Shown: one piece after another, positions 39,809 to 59,373 of the stretch
Position numbering within the stretch: the stretch's first letter is position 1
Layout of the letters: the number at the start of each line of letters is the position of its first letter
Assembly (NCBI RefSeq): GCF_000484535.1
Contig: NC_022600.1
Location: forward strand, 4,642,234 to 4,706,233
Origin: Gloeobacter kilaueensis JS1
Lineage (GTDB): Bacteria; Cyanobacteriota; Cyanobacteriia; Gloeobacterales; Gloeobacteraceae
DNA: 64,000 bases
Direction: 5' to 3'
Notes under the pieces: model-generated
What the model was told of the DNA's origin: nothing
What the model saw: only the letters and a program-made list of their open reading frames with translations
The model's database searches: none
Position numbers and translations under genes: made by a program

Positions 39809-40438
39809 ATGCGCCGCAACAGACGAGGAGTCACCACCACCGAGACCGTTGTCGGCCTGGCCCTGATGCCCGGCATCTTGATCGGTGCCATTAGCCTCTA
39901 CAATATCTTCTGGCAAGAATCCCACCGCCTGAGTGAATACCGCGCCGCCCGCGAACAACACAAGCAACTGGAAAATGTCCTCGCCCCTGCATTGGATGGG
40001 ATGGTTTTTAGTAAGATGGTTACTCCTCGCATATCAAATGGGCCCACTTACGACACTTTCCAGTCATATACAAACTACGATACAGCTATTTGGCGCTGGG
40101 TTCATGATGGTAATTCGGTATTTACTATTTTATATCCACAGCTTGTAGGTCTTCAACGGACTAGCGGTATTTGTTTGCAAGACAGACTAACAAACCTTGA
40201 GTTTGACAAGCGAAATCAAACATTGAAGCTAACGCGGTACCAGTACCGTAAAGACGGTCAGCTTGTCTCGTGCTTAGGTGGAGGGCAAGAGGGCATTCAA
40301 AGCACTGAACAAATTATATGGCAGAGGGTAGCCGATGCACAGATCCTGAGGCTACCAAATCTCGGTCTTGAGCTTTATGTACGCTTTGATGGAGAGCCGG
40401 AATGGCAGGCAGTTAATGGAGGCACTCGAGAAGATTAG
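39809..40438 (+). CDS. Pilin-like protein 3, compositionally mosaic
   Basis: 209 residues. The N-terminus (R-R-G-V-T-T-T-E-T-V-V-G-L-A-L-M) is prepilin-like, with Gly before the cleavage point and Glu in the hydrophobic segment. The first 190 bases or so have the GC-rich codons of the host; from about position 40000 the gene is clearly AT-richer, with ATA, TTA and AGA codons, and this continues through the next gene. The frame stays open, so it may be a recombinant gene whose 3' part was exchanged. The C-terminal domain matches nothing I know. Confidence 0.55.
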   Translation: MRRNRRGVTTTETVVGLALMPGILIGAISLYNIFWQESHRLSEYRAAREQHKQLENVLAPALDGMVFSKMVTPRISNGPTYDTFQSYTNYDTAIWRWVHDGNSVFTILYPQLVGLQRTSGICLQDRLTNLEFDKRNQTLKLTRYQYRKDGQLVSCLGGGQEGIQSTEQIIWQRVADAQILRLPNLGLELYVRFDGEPEWQAVNGGTRED

Positions 40439-40546
40439 CCGGTGCTGCTATCAGAAACTTTTCTGATTGGCTCTTACCTTATTGTACGTGATGATGTATA
40501 CTTCTTCAGTACTACATCGCTAAACCGTCTAAAGGAGTTGATTCAG

Positions 40547-41695
40547 ATGCGAGTAAGTGGCTTACTGTTTTTGGGCCTATCTTGTGTCGTCGTATCTAGC
40601 TTGCAACTCGCCCCAGCTTCTGGATTCAGCATTTCTGATTTAGAGGCTAGCAACAAAGAATTAATGGCAGCGGCCTCTCGACTCTCACCATCACTACTAC
40701 AAAATGCTATCCAATCCCCACAAGCTTTTTCATCCCCCGATCAAGCATTGACCATTCAAGTAAGTTCACCAACTAGCTTGTATGTTGGTGGAGATGGAGA
40801 TGTTAAGCAATATAATGCTAGTACTGGTACCTTCTTGGGCAATTTCGGTACGTCTATTTTCTCTAGTCCAGACCTTACTTACGGAGGTCCAGACAATCAC
40901 TTTTTTATAATTGACGGTTTCTCCTCAAATGTTTTGGAATATGATCAAGCTGGAGTCTTTGTGCGCGTACTAACTGGCCCGGCGAATGGCTTAGAACTTA
41001 ATCAACCAATTGGCGTCACCTTCTCCCCATACAATGGAAACCTATTTGTGTCAGATATTGGAAATGCCAGTAATGGAGTTTTTGGCAATATACGGGAAAT
41101 TAACCCGACTACAGGCGATTTAATAAATACTCTAACTAACGGCCCAAAAGGCTTTCAGCCTCTACAAGTTGCATTTGCTAATAACTCTCTTTACGTGAGT
41201 GATCTTACGTCCAATAGCGTCCTTCGCTACAATCCTTCCACAAATGTCTTTGATACCTTTGCCTCCAGCAGTGAACTTACAAGTCCAGGAGGTTTAGCTT
41301 TTGGAGGTTCGAGCCTTAACAATGATCTATTTGTTGTTGGCTCAGCGAGCACAATCTTGCGTTATGATGGCGCAACTGGAGCGTTCAAATCAATTTTTGC
41401 AACTAGTACTCTTCAAAACACTACTTTGACAGATCTTGCCTTCGGTCCAGACGGCAATCTTTATGTTACTGATACTAGAAACAGTAGTATCCTGAAATTT
41501 GATGGTATCACTGGTGCATTCGAGGGCCAGTTCGTTACACAGCAGGACGGAAACTTAACTAATCCGACAGGCATCTTGTTCGCCCCGTCATTAGTGCCTG
41601 AGCCGGTGATTGGTGGATCGGCTTTTGGGTTTGGTGTTCTGGGTCTGTTGGCGATCAAGGCTCGACGGCGCAGGCAGGTAGGCTCCAGCAAATAG
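40547..41695 (+). CDS. PEP-CTERM-type exported beta-propeller protein
   Basis: 382 residues. AAAGGAG lies 9 bases before ATG 40547, so the upstream 35 in-frame codons are not used. A signal peptide (L-L-F-L-G-L-S-C-V-V) is followed by repeated units of the form L-Y-V-S/T-D-x-x-x-N-S-V/I-L-R/K-Y/F, an NHL- or SMP-30-like propeller of about six blades. The C-terminus reads V-P-E-P, a short hydrophobic segment and a basic R-R-R-R end, which matches the PEP-CTERM sorting signal processed by exosortase. Base composition is AT-rich against the GC-rich neighbours, suggesting transfer. Confidence 0.75.
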   Translation: MRVSGLLFLGLSCVVVSSLQLAPASGFSISDLEASNKELMAAASRLSPSLLQNAIQSPQAFSSPDQALTIQVSSPTSLYVGGDGDVKQYNASTGTFLGNFGTSIFSSPDLTYGGPDNHFFIIDGFSSNVLEYDQAGVFVRVLTGPANGLELNQPIGVTFSPYNGNLFVSDIGNASNGVFGNIREINPTTGDLINTLTNGPKGFQPLQVAFANNSLYVSDLTSNSVLRYNPSTNVFDTFASSSELTSPGGLAFGGSSLNNDLFVVGSASTILRYDGATGAFKSIFATSTLQNTTLTDLAFGPDGNLYVTDTRNSSILKFDGITGAFEGQFVTQQDGNLTNPTGILFAPSLVPEPVIGGSAFGFGVLGLLAIKARRRRQVGSSK

Positions 41696-41710
41696 CAAGG
41701 GTTATTTGCT
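41687..41710. terminator. Shared hairpin at two convergent stops
   Basis: An 8-bp AGCAAATA/TATTTGCT stem with an 8-base loop spans the stop codons of the PEP-CTERM gene (plus) and the HD-domain gene (minus). It could end both transcripts. Confidence 0.45.
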
Positions 41711-42967
41711 AAGGAGTTTGCGTACTTCGGATTCGACTTCGCGAGGATAGACGAGCCAGACGCGGGTCTCGGGCTGGATGAGGGAGCGGACCAGTTGGGA
41801 GGCGTCGGCCAGTTCGCGCAGGTCCGCTCCATCGCGCAAAAAGATGCCCTGTTCGTAGAGGGTGTAGCCCCTGGCCTGGGTGTTCTGGAGGGTGCAGTAG
41901 TGGGTAGACGGCCAGCCCAAGGCGGCAACGGCGGCACAGACCCGCTTGTAGACAAATTCGCGGTGCAGGTCGGCTAAGTCGGTGACTTCGATCGCTTTGA
42001 AGAGGTCGCGGTCGAGGAAACGGCGGCAGAGATCGCCCAGGATCGGGTCGGGATGGTTGCGCCAGCGATTGAGGTGGTAGGTGAAGAGAATGTCGTCGGA
42101 GGCGAGGTAGGTTTGGAGGGGCATCTGTTCGATGTCGAGGACCAGCCAGGCTTTGATCTGCTCGTCCATCTCCAGTTCGCCGCTGCGGGCGTAGCGGGCA
42201 GCGAGGGCGAGCGCCTGCTGGAGGATGAAGCGGGCAGCCATGTTCTTCGGGTGGTAGTAGACCTGGGAGTACATGAAGTGGCGGACGACAAGGTAGTGCT
42301 CGATCGCGACCATCTGCTTGCGTCCACTCAGGACCAGGGTCTGGGTGGGCGGGTCGAAGTCGATGGCATGGATGATCCGATCGAGGTCGAGCTGGCCGTA
42401 GCGGGCTCCGGTAAAGTAGCTGTCGCGCACGAGGTAGTCGAGGCGGTCGCAGTCGAGCTGGCCTGAGATGAGCTGGGAGAGGGCGCTGATCGGGTGGGTC
42501 TTATTCAAGACGGCGCAGAGCTGACGGTTGAGGCCGGGGTCAAAGGCGTCGAGCAGTTGTGCAATCTGAGTGGATTCGCAGAGGATGCGGCGGGTCCACT
42601 GCTCGTGGTCGTAGTTGAAGATGTGTTCGCTCGCATGGCTGAAGGGGCCGTGGCCAACGTCGTGGAGAAGGGCAGAGCAGAGGGCGACCGTGCGAAAGGG
42701 AGCGAGCATCGGATAGCGGGGCGCGAGCCGGTCGAAGATGCGCCGGGCGATGGCCAGGACACCCAGAGAATGGGTGAAGCGCGAGCCCTCGGCACCGTGG
42801 AAGGTGAGGGCGGCAACGTCGAGCTGGCGGATGCGGCGCAGGCGCTGAAATTCGGGGGCATCGATGAGGCCGATGAGCAATGCCTCAGCTGGATCGCTGC
42901 CCGAAAGGCTGATCGCCCCGTGGATCGGATCGTGGTAGGTGCGGGACTTGCGCTGCAGAAGATTCAT
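41702..42967 (-). CDS. HD-domain phosphohydrolase, SAMHD1/dGTPase-like
   Basis: 421 residues. The N-terminal region I-H-G-A-I-S-L, R-L-R-R-I-R-Q-L and R-F-T-H-S-L-G near 65 is followed by the HD motif L-L-H-D-V-G-H-G-P-F-S-H near 100, and the last metal ligand lies in Q-L-D-C-D-R-L-D-Y near 170. This is the pattern of the YdhJ/SAMHD1-like dNTP triphosphohydrolase group. Expected role: nucleotide pool control or hydrolysis of a phospho-nucleotide; the exact substrate is open. Confidence 0.85.
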   Translation of the reverse strand: MNLLQRKSRTYHDPIHGAISLSGSDPAEALLIGLIDAPEFQRLRRIRQLDVAALTFHGAEGSRFTHSLGVLAIARRIFDRLAPRYPMLAPFRTVALCSALLHDVGHGPFSHASEHIFNYDHEQWTRRILCESTQIAQLLDAFDPGLNRQLCAVLNKTHPISALSQLISGQLDCDRLDYLVRDSYFTGARYGQLDLDRIIHAIDFDPPTQTLVLSGRKQMVAIEHYLVVRHFMYSQVYYHPKNMAARFILQQALALAARYARSGELEMDEQIKAWLVLDIEQMPLQTYLASDDILFTYHLNRWRNHPDPILGDLCRRFLDRDLFKAIEVTDLADLHREFVYKRVCAAVAALGWPSTHYCTLQNTQARGYTLYEQGIFLRDGADLRELADASQLVRSLIQPETRVWLVYPREVESEVRKLLSK

Positions 42968-53217: not shown

Positions 53218-53864
53218 GTTGGCTTAATTTTTGAAAATTGCGGGGACAGATTTGCGTTCACTCCAACTTGTGGGCCTCTAGTGGGCAATCACAGAAATAA
53301 GATTTAATGGCAAAAGTTCACTTTAAATAACTACTCGTACCAGCATCCTCATGCCCTTGCCATTAGACCAATCTTAGTATTTATTTTTTTATCATTTTGC
53401 GAGGGCATTGGCAAGCCAACTAGTGAAGTAGCTAACTAGACCACTAAGCAATGATAGTGTATAGTTAGGCGAGTAGAATGGTATTTGACACTATGAAACC
53501 TACCGAAAGAGTACAGTGCAGGTTTGAGCGTCAGATTGATAGTATAAAGACTGCCAGGCTTCATAGTTTAGGAAAAGTCGGCAAAATGGTCACGAAACAA
53601 GTGCATGAACTACCTGTACGAGAGACCATTGTAGGAGCAAGCCTTTTGCTAGAGAGCAAAGATCCGAAGCACATACAAGTCCCCAGATTCTAAGATTCAC
53701 ATATATTAAAGTGCAGACCATGGTTTACGCAGAAGAAATGAAGTACAGCAAGCATGTAGAGAGCTCAATCAAGTAGGGTTTCATTCGAGGGATTTGCCAA
53801 CTCAAATTCCATAAAAAAGTACGCAAAACTGTTATTGACATAGTAAACAAAGCCACTTGTTTGT
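53218..53864. other. Left end of the AT-rich island, no firm gene
   Basis: About 650 bases where composition drops sharply from GC-rich to AT-rich. Apart from a doubtful 71-codon ORF (53478-53693) no gene is supported. Several short TTGCCA/TGGCAA and AACTAG repeats are visible, and TTGACA at 53835-53840 may be the -35 of the methyltransferase gene. No integrase, tRNA or clear target duplication was found. Confidence 0.45.
53478..53693 (+). CDS. Doubtful 71-residue ORF
   Basis: An ATG-started AT-rich frame, basic and without recognisable domain or ribosome-binding site. It may be random or a remnant linked to the defence operon downstream. Confidence 0.2.
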   Translation: MVFDTMKPTERVQCRFERQIDSIKTARLHSLGKVGKMVTKQVHELPVRETIVGASLLLESKDPKHIQVPRF

Positions 53865-53882
53865 GTGAGGTTTGGCTGCATT

Positions 53883-54860
53883 ATGCATATAGTGGAGGAA
53901 TCAGTGGTATTGAAAAATGAAAACAGGGTGTCGCTTTCATATAGGACTGACCTAGGAAGCATGTACATCGGAAAAGCTGAGGATGCTTTAGAGCTTTCGG
54001 AAATTCAATCATTGCAAGGGAAGGTTAATTTAATATTTACGTCTCCCCCCTTCCCCTTAATCACCAAGAAGCGGTATGGAAACGAATCTGGGGAAAAGTA
54101 CGTTGAATGGCTTGAGGGATTGGCTCCCAGCTTGGCAAAATTACTGGCACCAGACGGGTCGATTGTGATTGAGGTTGGGAATGCTTGGGAGGAAGGTATT
54201 CCTGTAATGTCCACTCTTCCTCTAGAAGCACTACTTGCTTTTAAAAAAGCTGCTGAGCTCAATCTATGCCAGCATATAATTTGCCACAATCCAGCAAGAC
54301 TCCCTAGCCCTGCACAGTGGGTAACTATAGAGCGGATAAGATTAAAGGACTCATATACCCATTTGTGGTGGATGTCTTCTGTGGATTCGCCAAAGGCGGA
54401 TAATAGGAGAGTTTTAACGCCATATAGCACATCAATGAAAAAGCTACTTGAGAAAAAAAAATATAATTCTGGAAAAAGACCCTCTGGGCATGTTATTTCA
54501 GAAAATGGTTTCCTTACAGATCACGGGGGGGCTATTTCAGCAAATGTTATTGAGGTTGGCGAACAAAGTTCAAAGATACCAGGAGCTTTGCTAAAACTGA
54601 CTGGAACCGCTTGGGACAGTAAATATAGAGAATACTGCAAAGAGCACGATTTAGAATCGCATCCAGCAAGGATGCAAATCGAATTAGCTGGATTTTTTAT
54701 TCAATTTCTCACGTTACCAGGTGACATCATATTGGATCCATTTGCAGGTTCAAATACTACAGGTTTTGCAGCGGAACAGCTTAAGCGACACTGGATAAGT
54801 ATAGAAGTAGATCCAGGATATGTTGAAGGCTCGAAAGGACGTTTTGATGCAGTCAGGTAA
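53883..54860 (+). CDS. Beta-class DNA methyltransferase (m4C or m6A)
   Basis: 325 residues from ATG 53883 (GTG 53865 possible). Catalytic motif IV T-S-P-P-F lies near residues 53-57 and the SAM-binding motif I D-P-F-A-G-S-N-T-T-G near 285-294, so motif IV precedes motif I as in the beta class. The S-P-P-F form is most common in N4-cytosine enzymes, though N6-adenine is possible. It is the first gene of the AT-rich operon and probably protects host sites from the GHKL-helicase-nuclease module. Base composition is unlike the chromosome, suggesting transfer. Confidence 0.85.
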   Translation: MHIVEESVVLKNENRVSLSYRTDLGSMYIGKAEDALELSEIQSLQGKVNLIFTSPPFPLITKKRYGNESGEKYVEWLEGLAPSLAKLLAPDGSIVIEVGNAWEEGIPVMSTLPLEALLAFKKAAELNLCQHIICHNPARLPSPAQWVTIERIRLKDSYTHLWWMSSVDSPKADNRRVLTPYSTSMKKLLEKKKYNSGKRPSGHVISENGFLTDHGGAISANVIEVGEQSSKIPGALLKLTGTAWDSKYREYCKEHDLESHPARMQIELAGFFIQFLTLPGDIILDPFAGSNTTGFAAEQLKRHWISIEVDPGYVEGSKGRFDAVR

Positions 54861-54912
54861 CAACCAAATGAGGAAAATGTGATTTAGTAGTTCAATCTTT
54901 GTGAGGGGAAAA

Positions 54913-56490
54913 ATGGAAAAGAATGCTACAGAGACAACACTAGAAATTGGGCCAAGTGCAATTGAAGCTTACAGCCGATTGAGTTACACAATGTGGTATG
55001 CGTTAGCCGAATTTATTGACAATTCCACTCAATCACGGATGAATTATGAGTCTATCATTGATGATGTGCTGCTCAATGAGGGAACTCCACTAACGGTGAA
55101 GATTGATCATAATAGAATTAAGAGAGAAATTTCCATTTCTGACAACTCAATAGGAATGACAAATGCCGATCTAGTAAATGCATTAAGAATCGCATGTCCA
55201 ACACCTGATAGCAAAGGGCGTTCGAAGTACGGTATGGGCATGAAAACTGCAGCTTGCTGGATTGGGAAAAGATGGAGAATAGAGACTTGTGAATGGGCTA
55301 GCGGGCAAGAATGGACAGCCGAAGTCGATGTTGCTGCTGTGGCTAGAAGCCAAGCGAAGATTCCATTATCTCTTAGAGAAGTAAGTACCAATGAGCATTA
55401 CACCAGGATTATAATTTCTGAGATGCAGAGGTACATCCAAGGACGCACTGAAGAAACGATTAAGAATTACTTAGGCTCAATGTACAGATTTGATTTGAAA
55501 GAAGGTAAGTTGAAATTAATTTACAACAATGAAGAGATTCAACCTCCTGATGAATATGAATACGACACGGATCCCGAAGGCAAACCGATGATGAGAGAGA
55601 TTCCTGAGACTATGATAAATGGGAAATCAATACGTGGTTGGTTCGCCGTGCTAAAAAAAGGCGGTCGCAAATTCGGTGGTTTTTCGCTATTTCAAAACCG
55701 TAGGCAAATCCAAGGCTTTCCCAATGCATGGAAACCGCAGAGTATATTTGGTGGTGTTGAGGATGAGGGAGCTAATAACTTGGTGGCCCAGCGTCTTACT
55801 GGTTTACTTGAACTGGACGGATTTCAGGTATCCCACACAAAAGATACAATTTTGTTTCAAGACGATGAGGAAGAACAACTCGTAAAGTTGCTAGATGAGC
55901 AAACTAAGGACTACAGGAATTACGCCCAAAAGCGAAGGGGCTCGCGTGGACAACCTTGGACACCTGAGAAATTAAACGATTTGTTTCAAGGGTTAAAGAG
56001 AGAATTTGAAAGTCCTGAGATGAAAGATGCTGTCAGTAGTTCTTTACTCCCGCCCTTGCAAACTATTCAAGCCAACAATCAATCTCAACTCGCTGCATTG
56101 GTACCATCAGATACAATGGCAACAGTGGACTTAACGCCGCAGCTTAAAGTTGTTATATCTCTATCGAATAAGAGTGAGTTTGAACCTCATTTGACGATTG
56201 TTGCTGGCGCAGAACCAAGGACGATCCATGTCATTATCAATGGCCTGCATCCTTATTACAATGAATTAGAGTCTACGGAGGCTATTAATGAATGCATTAA
56301 ACAATATCTATATGATGCAATAGCTGAGTATAGAGTTTCACAACTAACTGCAAGAGTTAATACAGATAGTATCAGGCGCTTGAAAAATGATTTACTTAGA
56401 GTGCAAGTAGTGAAAATCGAGAATGCTGCAAGTGCAATAAGAGCAGGTGAATTGGAAACTACTATTTTTAGCGATAATGATAACGGGTAA
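54913..56490 (+). CDS. MORC/MutL-like GHKL ATPase of a restriction-type system
   Basis: 525 residues from ATG 54913, which has AGGGG 5 bases upstream. The N-terminal third is a Bergerat-fold ATPase: N box A-E-F-I-D-N-S near 31-37 (Glu and Asn for Mg-ATP), G1 box S-D-N-S-I-G-M near 76-82 and G2-like lid Y-G-M-G-M-K-T-A near 105-113. The next part resembles the S5-type transducer domain of MORC/MutL/Hsp90 proteins (F-G-G-F-S-L-F-Q-N-R-R-Q-I near 250). The C-terminal 200 residues are unknown. Bacterial MORC-like ATPases are known in restriction-modification loci, which fits the neighbours. Confidence 0.8.
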   Translation: MEKNATETTLEIGPSAIEAYSRLSYTMWYALAEFIDNSTQSRMNYESIIDDVLLNEGTPLTVKIDHNRIKREISISDNSIGMTNADLVNALRIACPTPDSKGRSKYGMGMKTAACWIGKRWRIETCEWASGQEWTAEVDVAAVARSQAKIPLSLREVSTNEHYTRIIISEMQRYIQGRTEETIKNYLGSMYRFDLKEGKLKLIYNNEEIQPPDEYEYDTDPEGKPMMREIPETMINGKSIRGWFAVLKKGGRKFGGFSLFQNRRQIQGFPNAWKPQSIFGGVEDEGANNLVAQRLTGLLELDGFQVSHTKDTILFQDDEEEQLVKLLDEQTKDYRNYAQKRRGSRGQPWTPEKLNDLFQGLKREFESPEMKDAVSSSLLPPLQTIQANNQSQLAALVPSDTMATVDLTPQLKVVISLSNKSEFEPHLTIVAGAEPRTIHVIINGLHPYYNELESTEAINECIKQYLYDAIAEYRVSQLTARVNTDSIRRLKNDLLRVQVVKIENAASAIRAGELETTIFSDNDNG

Positions 56491-56498
56491 GATCGTTT

Positions 56499-57653
56499 GT
56501 GGCTAGGGTGCCTCTTAGAGAGTGGCAAAGGAAAGCTCTTTTCCAGTGGGAACAGGCGTCCCACAAAGGAATTGTTAGCGTTGTTACAGGCGGCGGGAAA
56601 ACCATTTTTGCTCTTGCATGTATTGATAAGCTGCAGCCCAACACTGTTCTAATTGTTGTTCCTACAGTTGCCCTGCTTGACCAGTGGTGGGAGGAGGCAG
56701 CTAATTACTTTGACTTGGCATTGGATGAAATTTACATAGTAGAAAAAGTTAAAAGACTCCGAACGGGAACCATAAATTTGGCGGTGCTTAATACCGCCTC
56801 TAAATTAGAGAATAAAGTTGATAGTTCTCCATGTTTTCTTATAGTTGATGAATGCCATAAAGCAGCAAGCCCTACATTTAGTTCTGTGTTATTACTGCCA
56901 AAGATTGCATCTTTAGGATTATCTGCGACACCTGAGCGGCCTTATGATGATGGTTTGAATGAGACTTTAATTCCAGCGCTCGGTCCGCTCATCTATAAGT
57001 ACACTTATAGAGATGCGCTGCAGGATGGAGTAATAGTTCCATTCACATTAAACAACATAGTCTTTGAGCTTGAAGAAGATCGGAAACAAGAATATGACAG
57101 ATTAACGAAATCTATTGCTCGCTCAATTCAACGATATGGAATTGAGGCACAAGAGACTGTCTCACTATTACTTCGGAGAACTAGAGTTCTTAATCTAAGT
57201 TTAAATCGAGTACGTTTGGCTTTACGTCTAGTGGCAGCACATCGTGGTAAGCGTGTTCTTGTTTTTCATGAAGATATTGAAGCTTGCAATATAATTTACC
57301 AAGTACTTGAGAAGTATAACTTTAAAGCAGGCATTTATCATTCTAAGCTAACTCTACGTCAACGTGTCAGTATGCTTTCGTTATATAGACGCGGAGAAAT
57401 TGAAATTTTGGTTACTTGTCGGGCGCTTGACGAAGGTTTTAATGTTCCTGAGACAGAAATTGGCATCATTGCTGCTAGCACTGCTACTCGTAGACAACGT
57501 ATCCAAAGGTTAGGCCGTGTACTTCGGCCTGCAGGTGGAAAATCTGCTGCCATAATTTATACTCTTGTTGCTACTATTCCCGAGATTAGTCGTTTGCGAG
57601 ATGAGGAAATCGAGCTACAGGGAATGGCAACTATTACATGGAATGAAGCATGA
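56499..57653 (+). CDS. SF2 DNA helicase/translocase, XPB/Res-like
   Basis: A 384-residue two-domain helicase. Q-like motif W-Q-R-K-A near residue 9, motif I V-T-G-G-G-K-T near 28-34, motif II V-D-E-C-H near 116, motif III S-A-T-P-E near 143, motif V D-E-G-F-N-V-P-E near 310 and motif VI Q-R-L-G-R-V-L-R-P near 336. It lacks extra domains, so target recognition must come from partners. GTG start 8 bases after the GHKL gene, and the stop overlaps the nuclease gene by 4 bases (ATGA), so all three are one transcript. Confidence 0.88.
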   Translation: MARVPLREWQRKALFQWEQASHKGIVSVVTGGGKTIFALACIDKLQPNTVLIVVPTVALLDQWWEEAANYFDLALDEIYIVEKVKRLRTGTINLAVLNTASKLENKVDSSPCFLIVDECHKAASPTFSSVLLLPKIASLGLSATPERPYDDGLNETLIPALGPLIYKYTYRDALQDGVIVPFTLNNIVFELEEDRKQEYDRLTKSIARSIQRYGIEAQETVSLLLRRTRVLNLSLNRVRLALRLVAAHRGKRVLVFHEDIEACNIIYQVLEKYNFKAGIYHSKLTLRQRVSMLSLYRRGEIEILVTCRALDEGFNVPETEIGIIAASTATRRQRIQRLGRVLRPAGGKSAAIIYTLVATIPEISRLRDEEIELQGMATITWNEA

Positions 57654-58432
57654 GAACTATTTTTATTGGTGAGTGCTTGCCTGGCTCTTTGTACTGTATG
57701 GATGATCCTGACGAGCCTAATGAAAACCAATTTACAGAAACTGTAATTAAAGCGCTCTCTTGTATCTATAGCAATTATTACTGTATAGTATTCAACGGTT
57801 GTTTTTTGTATGAGCAACGGGCTTATAGACCTGACCTAGCCCTTATAGCAAAGGATTATTCTCACTGGTTTGTTATAGAAGTTGAGTTAGCTTCTCATTC
57901 TTTTGAGGGCCATATATTACCCCAGGTTAAAGCCTTTCGGTATGGTGAGCCTCAAGCTAGTTGTTCTCGTGCTTTGGCTTCGCAATTGGGTATTTCGTTT
58001 GAACAAGCACAGACTTTAACTTTATATGTTCCTTGCGTTACCACAGTAGTAGTGAACAGAAGAAAGCTTGACTGGGAAAAAGTATTGGCATCTCACAATA
58101 TTCAAATGTTAACGGTCACTTCTTTTCGATCTATTACCAATATTCAAGCTCTTGAAATTGAGGGTGTACTTCAGGTTATTAGAGAAAATTTAGGATTTGG
58201 TACATTTATGGCTACTGACCGCTCAATTCGATTTCCCACTGTAACAAGGATCCCTGAAGGTAAACTTCAAATTTATAATTCTGAAGGCGTCCTGTCTTGG
58301 TGGGTTATTGAAAAAACTAGTTCAGCAATATGGTTGAGAAAAGAGAGCGGTGTGCCTGACTTAGTGGACGGCTCTTATGTTCAGCTAATTCGCACAATCG
58401 AAGGACGCTTCTCTTTGCTCGTCCATTTATAA
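57650..58432 (+). CDS. Probable PD-(D/E)XK-type nuclease of the operon
   Basis: 260 residues. A helix with N-Q-F-T-E-T-V near residue 25, then R-P-D-L-A-L near 59-64 and, after a hydrophobic strand, F-V-I-E-V-E-L near 74-80, give an E...PD...E-x-E core in the order expected of the PD-(D/E)XK fold, with Glu in place of the final Lys. A long C-terminal part with beta strands ends in L-L-V-H-L and matches nothing I know. The ATGA overlap with the helicase gene implies tight coupling. Assignment as a nuclease is from pattern and context. Confidence 0.6.
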   Translation: MRTIFIGECLPGSLYCMDDPDEPNENQFTETVIKALSCIYSNYYCIVFNGCFLYEQRAYRPDLALIAKDYSHWFVIEVELASHSFEGHILPQVKAFRYGEPQASCSRALASQLGISFEQAQTLTLYVPCVTTVVVNRRKLDWEKVLASHNIQMLTVTSFRSITNIQALEIEGVLQVIRENLGFGTFMATDRSIRFPTVTRIPEGKLQIYNSEGVLSWWVIEKTSSAIWLRKESGVPDLVDGSYVQLIRTIEGRFSLLVHL

Positions 58433-58602
58433 TAATTGACGTGGTGTTGAGTTACCAGTTATTCATCCAATGGTTAAGCGGTACGAATTCTAAAGTAAAG
58501 TACAAGTATTAAGAATCTTCACTTATAGTGAACTAAAGGTACCAAACGTTCACTACAACGAGAATTTATCTCTATAAACTATCAGTGGCTCAACGCTTTG
58601 GA

Positions 58603-58624
58603 GAGCAAAGAACTCTTTGTTTTC
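58603..58624 (+). terminator. Weak terminator after the defence operon
   Basis: CAAAG/CTTTG stem with an AACT loop, extendable by G-U and A-U pairs, followed by TTTT; 170 bases after the nuclease stop. Confidence 0.4.
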
Positions 58625-58656
58625 TAAATTGATCTTACCTGGCCAATTCGTATTTT

Positions 58657-59223
58657 TTAAGAACGAAAAATTTCCGCTACAGAGGTACTGAACCCCGGCA
58701 ACAGCGGTGAGGTGAGCGTATCTCCCGCCAGCAGGGTGCCGACAAGTTGAAGCCGGGCTTCGGTGCGGCGGTAAATTTCGAAAGTTTCGCGCTGCCAGCT
58801 CACGATCCAGTACTCCTGCACGCCATGCAGGGAGTAGAGTTTGAGCTTGATTTCTCTGTCGCGCTGTTCGTTCAGCTCTCCAGAAGACAGGATCTCGACG
58901 ACGAGTTCAGGGGCAACGATCAGGTGCCCGGCTTCGTCGATGCCCTCAGCAAGGCGGGTACTGCTTACCCAAACGACATCGGGAATGACCGCATCGTCGG
59001 GGGTGAAGATGATCCCTGGCGCTTGCAGAGGTTCGCCCAACTGCGCCTTTCTGGACCAGGATTCTAGCTCGAAGAAAATCTTGCCGCCCGCCCGTTGATG
59101 GCGAATATGAGGAGCACGGGTCACGTAGAGATTTCCATCGACGATTTCGTAGCGCTTCCAGCCGCCGTCGTCGGGCATTGCCTCGAGGTCTCGGATCGTC
59201 CAGCGCAGGGCATCGGGAAACAT
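58657..59223 (-). CDS. Uma2-family (DUF820) endonuclease-like protein
   Basis: 188 residues of the Uma2 family with V-I-P-D-V-V-W-V near 90, E-L-V-V-E-I-L-S near 115 and the K-L-K-L-Y...V-Q-E-Y-W-I-V segment. GC-rich like the host, it marks the right border of the AT-rich island. Second Uma2 member in the window; role unknown. Confidence 0.83.
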   Translation of the reverse strand: MFPDALRWTIRDLEAMPDDGGWKRYEIVDGNLYVTRAPHIRHQRAGGKIFFELESWSRKAQLGEPLQAPGIIFTPDDAVIPDVVWVSSTRLAEGIDEAGHLIVAPELVVEILSSGELNEQRDREIKLKLYSLHGVQEYWIVSWQRETFEIYRRTEARLQLVGTLLAGDTLTSPLLPGFSTSVAEIFRS

Positions 59224-59373
59224 AGGATCTGCCGTTGATCCAGTTAATTCAGTGTAGTTGATTGTTCAGAATTACCTGGAGAAGCTGTTCCGGCAATGGC
59301 ATCGTAAAGCCGGAAATAGACCCGCCCTGGAGTTGAGGATGTCGCGAAGCCTCTCCGGCTGGGGTGGCCTGAA

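Follow-up and report, generated by a model that had tools for sequence, protein, structure and literature searches.

A compact block of four co-directional genes in Gloeobacter kilaueensis JS1 is likely to encode an ATP-dependent restriction-modification system that includes a MORC ATPase alongside an M.PvuII-like methyltransferase, an XPB/Rad25-like SF2 motor and a nuclease-like protein that we call P4. The cassette (Table 1) spans 4.6 kb of the window, the whole 64,000-nucleotide stretch analysed here, which corresponds to positions 4642234–4706233 of a single 4,724,791-bp contig. An ORF check found all four frames intact on one strand at 53865–58432, as an earlier note on this DNA had described them. 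The tight packing of the last three genes and the sharp drop in GC that the note reported were also borne out: 8 bases separate the GHKL stop (56490) from the SF2 start (56499), SF2 and P4 overlap by 4 bases (57650–57653), and the GC fraction is 0.41 in the block versus 0.61 in the rest of the window.

Table 1 Features of the cassette and of the insert that contains it (window coordinates).
Feature	Coordinates	Strand	Evidence
Beta-class DNA methyltransferase, M.PvuII-like	53865..54860	+	PF01555, PADLOC MTase_II, PDB 1boo, motif order
MORC-like ATPase	54913..56490	+	PF13589, GHKL + S5 motifs, AF2 model + fold matches
SF2 helicase/translocase, XPB/Rad25-like	56499..57653	+	ResIII, Helicase_C, PbeA, TIGR04095, PDB 2fwr/6p66
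P4: PD-(D/E)XK-type nuclease + B3-like domain (predicted)	57650..58432	+	AF2, Foldseek, invariant residues
Whole insert: glutathione-peroxidase-like gene stop to downstream convergent gene stop	53218..59373	.	Synteny in L037, L038, L039
Uma2-family gene inside insert	58657..59223	-	PF05685 E 5e-36

The first gene product belongs to PF01555 in a Pfam profile search (E 1e-32) and matches the PADLOC model MTase_II (E 1e-78), and its best solved relative is M.PvuII (PDB 1boo; E 2e-62 for the protein alone, 2e-96 as a family profile). Motif IV (TSPPF) lies upstream of motif I (DPFAGSNTTG), which is the beta order and agrees with the class assigned earlier; judged by its sequence, the enzyme is probably an N4-cytosine methyltransferase. 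Its start codon could be GTG 53865, ATG 53883 or a later one. An M.PvuII-family methyltransferase is common to the cassette and the PvuII type II restriction-modification system, but no R.PvuII-like endonuclease was found next to it, and the window has ATP-driven parts instead.

The second product matches PF13589 (HATPase_c_3, E 6e-24) and is laid out as a GHKL domain, an S5 domain, a helical linker, a C-terminal alpha/beta domain and a long terminal helix. Although the frame is open from GTG 54901, the sequences of relatives make ATG 54913 the probable start. The GHKL motifs ExxDN, DNxxGM and KYGMGMKTA are invariant or nearly so among relatives; in 23 GHKL sequences E33, D36, N37, D77, G81 and KYGMGMKTA do not vary, and four intact ATP-binding motifs are followed by the S5-fold domain. 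When compared with the MORC S5 motif of Iyer 2008 (GhXhhpXXRhl), the window stretch GFSLFQNRRQI fits at 10 of 11 positions, with Q where a hydrophobic residue is expected, and the fit is full in relatives with the second of two gene orders described below (order B; GFSILQAERVV) and in an archaeal one (GLTMFYNNRVI). An AF2 model of moderate confidence (pLDDT 77.6) has fold matches to MORC2, MORC3, MORC4 and Hsp90/TRAP1. MORC3 and MORC4 align with it over ~390–420 columns (TM 0.57–0.59 by target, rmsd 5–8 Å), and the full-length Hsp90/TRAP1 matches lie mostly at ~15 Å rmsd. Motif and fold thus uphold the MORC-like half of the former label ‘MORC/MutL-like’ but not the MutL-like half. The MzaB model scores this ATPase at 25.9 bits against a cutoff of 850, and the cassette contains no Z1 or AIPR match, which places it outside the MZA systems.

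The third product matches ResIII and Helicase_C in Pfam and is, by sequence, XPB/Rad25-like. It shows kinship with the helicase part of PbeA (PADLOC, E 3e-73) and of TIGR04095 (E 3e-55, under the cutoff of that model) and matches archaeal XPB structures (PDB 2fwr/6p66, E 1e-38). The motifs TGGGKT, DECH, SAT and QRxGRxxR are invariant or nearly so among relatives, so that the motif sets of both the ATPase and the helicase, which had been described as complete, are also conserved. PADLOC matches in the cassette are limited to the methyltransferase and the helicase type, a point that counts against the restriction-modification reading.

P4, the fourth product, is an unannotated protein of 260 aa. 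Sequence searches of Pfam, also with 20 members, and of NCBIfam, PADLOC and the PDB gave no significant match. An AF2 model built from 20 relatives (pLDDT 93.6) places helices at residues 25–39 and 85–98, strands up to residue 79 and a strand at 129–135; E25, D62, E77xE79, H83, H88 and P91-Q92 are invariant. Foldseek gives separate matches to the restriction-fold nucleases Card1, EndoMS/NucS, Bax1 and MunI. The lack of a nuclease fold in this protein had been named beforehand as a possible refutation of the earlier reading, and the model has that fold. Of the designation ‘probable PD-(D/E)XK nuclease’, the fold therefore stands but the motif does not, because the sequence runs PD...ExE rather than ExK: in E77-V-E79, both glutamates are invariant in 20 of 20 members, the usual catalytic lysine is replaced, and distant P4 relatives keep ExE as well. 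BamHI is among the members of the PD-(D/E)XK superfamily that use ExE. On the model, P4 is a variant of this fold family with a non-canonical motif. Two properties of P4 count against the restriction-modification reading, namely that activity is not assured without the usual lysine and that its fold matches overall lie at E 0.003–0.1, with none below E 0.001.

The C-terminal 110 residues of the P4 model are all-beta. In the Foldseek search against the PDB, B3 DNA-binding domains come out on top (At1g16640, VAL1, TEM1, NGA1, LEC2 and RAV1; E 0.003–0.03, TM 0.53–0.57 by target, placed on the C-terminus by exclusion), with LlaJI.R1-N and BfiI lower in the list. P4 thus appears from its model to consist of a nuclease domain (approximately residues 1–150) and a B3-like DNA-binding domain (approximately 150–260), and probably serves both to recognise the site and to cut. 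Distant relatives in two genomes (L040 5787–6839; L060 7344–8330) fit this two-domain build: they keep PD...EVEL..HS...H..PQ, have another C-terminus and lack a MORC gene nearby. To judge from their sequences, these stand-alone relatives of the nuclease domain could represent a wider, unannotated nuclease family. Moreover, the C-terminal part is the fastest-evolving piece of P4 in both gene-order groups, as expected for a recognition domain. Since Pfam, NCBIfam and PADLOC all fail to pick up P4, present-day annotation would probably read the locus as an orphan type II methyltransferase with unrelated neighbours.

The predicted combination of nuclease and B3-like domain follows the principle of R.CglI and R.NgoAVII and thereby supports the reading as an ATP-dependent restriction-modification system. 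CglI and NgoAVII use a nuclease-B3 protein together with a separate SF2 ATPase, and cutting, at fixed positions next to GCCGC, takes place only with extensive ATP hydrolysis (PMC4267653). The window cassette shares with these systems a stand-alone methyltransferase and a separate SF2 ATPase, to which P4 would add a nuclease-B3 restriction protein. By contrast, the three-gene CglI/NgoAVII systems have a PLD-type nuclease, a Z1-bearing ATPase, a C5 methyltransferase and no MORC ATPase; with a PD-(D/E)XK-like P4 and an SF2 protein that has no Z1 match, the cassette lies outside that class of PLD nuclease-B3 and DEAD-Z1 proteins. We propose that the methyltransferase would mark the host's own sites and that the B3-like domain of P4 would read the same site, unmarked, on incoming DNA. 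P4 could then recruit or activate the XPB-like motor, which would translocate on the DNA or open it, and the MORC dimer would close round the DNA upon ATP binding, holding or looping it. Finally, the nuclease domain of P4 would cut only within this assembled, ATP-consuming complex. Complex formation, the site-reading subunit, the order of events, cutting and protection against phages or plasmids are all parts of the scheme that we infer.

Several known or predicted systems share subsets of these parts. Iyer, Abhiman and Aravind (2008, PMC2292703) predicted restriction-modification systems composed of prokaryotic MORCs, SF2 helicases and nucleases, in which the GHKL protein loops DNA, and the earlier statement that GHKL/MORC ATPases are known from such loci by comparative genomics is accurate in that sense. 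Group 1 of that paper likewise combines a GHKL-S5 MORC-like ATPase, a Rad25/XPB-like SF2 protein, a nuclease and a methyltransferase in laterally mobile loci, and this exact cassette may be among its examples. In those operons, however, nuclease (RE fold or HKD) and helicase commonly form a single fusion protein, whereas here the nuclease is a separate PD-ExE protein with a predicted B3-like domain, and the methyltransferase of the window is M.PvuII-like. Systems of this kind have thus been predicted before; what the present analysis adds is the predicted nuclease-B3 architecture of P4, the existence of two gene orders, the probable exchange of methyltransferases and the empty site.

Operons of MORC, Z1 helicase, PD-(D/E)XK protein and Dcm, together with MZA (for example, on Rathayibacter plasmid NZ_CP047182.1), likewise have a methyltransferase, a MORC-like ATPase, an SF2-type motor and a PD-(D/E)XK protein, but their helicase is of the Z1 type, their methyltransferase is a C5 enzyme and profile comparison detected no kinship between their PD-(D/E)XK proteins and P4. 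An operon of MORC, Z1-helicase-like and PD-(D/E)XK-like genes is also present on an IMG/VR contig classed as viral (L056 5983–12649). The archaeal XPB-Bax1 pair (PMC7293015) resembles the cassette in joining an XPB-like SF2 motor to a restriction-fold nuclease, Bax1 being one of the P4 fold matches, but has a repair role, lacks a methyltransferase and a MORC protein, and includes N-terminal and Cas2-like domains in Bax1. A protein that joins a GHKL domain to a Shedu-type nuclease (paraMORC3 type) defends Vibrio cholerae (PMC12137116), and this makes a defence role for the window cassette more plausible. In the literature searched, neither a functional, phage-defence or restriction study of this exact gene set nor functional work on any bacterial MORC together with its complete operon came to light.

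When 84,980 species genomes were scanned with GHKL as the anchor, 25 loci emerged, including a close set of 22 (L002–L023), and a P4-anchored search added two further complete loci (L059 and L062). Whether the four families co-occur elsewhere had been fixed in advance as a point on which the earlier reading could fail. All four genes are adjacent in 19 of the 22 close loci, as they are in L059 and L062; two others are cut by contig ends, and one, in Variovorax (L011), has a displaced family member ~25 kb off on the same contig (G409 C27:69525–70403), with no methyltransferase remnant beside the core. This recurrence is far beyond chance and, together with the nuclease fold of the P4 model, leaves the earlier interpretation supported, although the clamping or looping role of the GHKL protein and the anti-phage activity are still conjectural. 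The genes run MTase-GHKL-SF2-P4 in the window and mostly in Proteobacteria (order A), and MTase-SF2-P4-GHKL in Acidobacteriota, Chloroflexota and Actinomycetota (order B). In uncut loci the core was never seen without a methyltransferase. A locus in a Poseidoniales archaeon (L063 9981–14610), where SF2-P4-GHKL is followed by DGQHR-motif, GIY-YIG-like and N6-type methyltransferase-like proteins (the last three read from sequence), may represent an archaeal form of the system that carries another modification module. Among 83 flanking proteins, no Pfam family turns up more than twice and there is no recurrent fifth gene, so the four genes appear to be the full unit. P4 is found in less than 1% of genomes in each of four sampled groups, counting the centre genome each time: 2 of 386 in cyanobacteria, including a weak match that lacks GHKL, and 3 of 369, 2 of 396 and 2 of 385 in the others. 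Plasmids yielded three distant MORCs, none with this cassette, and viral contigs a single match, a MORC-Z1 operon rather than this cassette. Recurrence across several phyla points to a little-studied, energy-driven system against foreign DNA.

In the trees of SF2 and of P4 the two gene orders separate with 100/100 support, whereas the same split is rejected when forced on the methyltransferase tree (AU p=0.0056), which indicates that the methyltransferase has probably been swapped between cores at least once. The trees thus indicate a coherent restriction core of SF2, P4 and GHKL with the methyltransferase as an exchangeable partner. In order A, methyltransferase distances track P4 beyond SF2 (partial r 0.44–0.62, permutation p 0.0005–0.002) and are more weakly related to GHKL distances (partial r 0.17–0.23), a pattern suggestive of a common site recognised by P4 and the methyltransferase. 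Order B gives no clear repeat, which counts against the reading: partial r for the P4 N-terminal part is -0.28 and -0.10, the C-terminal part reaches significance with no methyltransferase segment other than the middle one, and GHKL correlates at least as well. A conflict between two methyltransferase types within order A and the SF2 tree was considered and dropped, since none of the trees contradicts the split and the differences are mainly in branch length.

An exchangeable methyltransferase, 25 kb off in Variovorax, might also belong to a type IV-like or modification-dependent device, in which the core would attack modified or damaged phage DNA and the methyltransferase would be a regulator or passenger; an XPB-like motor with a restriction-fold nuclease does recall the archaeal XPB-Bax1 repair pair (PMC7293015). 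We consider this unlikely, because a dispensable methyltransferase would often be lost, yet all uncut bacterial loci among the 22 retain the M.PvuII-family enzyme, and even the displaced one is still in its genome. Within the preferred reading as an ATP-dependent restriction-modification system, we tentatively put forward, at somewhat less than even chance, that the MORC clamp is the obligatory coupling between the nuclease-B3 reader and the XPB-type motor, and that a three-gene core that swaps methyltransferases makes up a distinct class of restriction machine. In plants and animals, MORC proteins act to silence transposons, and an origin from bacterial restriction operons has been proposed for them. 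If it is real, a MORC-coupled class would offer a small, tractable bacterial system for the ancestral action of MORC ATPases on DNA, and the compact, intact cassette, which stays coherent from phylum to phylum and whose nuclease bears a predicted site-reading domain, makes the MORC step testable by gene removal.

The cassette region is a laterally acquired insert, as its empty site in three congeners (L037, L038 and L039) indicates: there, the glutathione-peroxidase-like gene ends 7–8 bp from the next convergent gene, and in the window ~6.2 kb lies between the two. The congeners have no close MORC homologue, only weak matches covering 60 residues. In 23 of 24 related loci the cassette has a lower GC content than its flanks, in one of them marginally so, and among the neighbours in other genomes are integrases, a TrwC relaxase, ArdC, a transposase and AbiE. 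Matches between the insert ends, searched for terminal repeats, are at chance level. Uma2 is not among the most frequent families of the 83 flanking proteins at other loci, and the Uma2 gene probably lies outside the system as a separate arrival. That the insert retains a foreign base composition and that P4 has ExE for ExK could mean that this genome carries a silent or decayed copy despite the intact frames; we think this very improbable, as all four frames are open, every family-invariant residue is present and ExE is normal for the family, being shared by all 20 aligned members and by distant relatives. Least probable of all is a MutL-like repair or recombination module, in which a helicase-nuclease and its GHKL clamp would have been captured along with a methyltransferase: mismatch repair uses a GHKL protein, a nuclease and a helicase, Iyer et al. 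raise a possible recruitment to repair (PMC2292703) and XPB-Bax1 is a repair pair (PMC7293015), but the sparse distribution in the four sampled groups, lateral transfer, mobile neighbours, the tight link to a site-specific methyltransferase and the predicted B3-like domain all speak against it.

A second AT-rich patch of the window (40001–42000, GC 0.44–0.50) contains, at first sight, no defence locus; at 40442–41695 it encodes a secreted protein of 417 aa that, by eye, resembles a beta-propeller and ends in a sorting-like tail at its C-terminus, and an HD-domain-like protein lies next to it.
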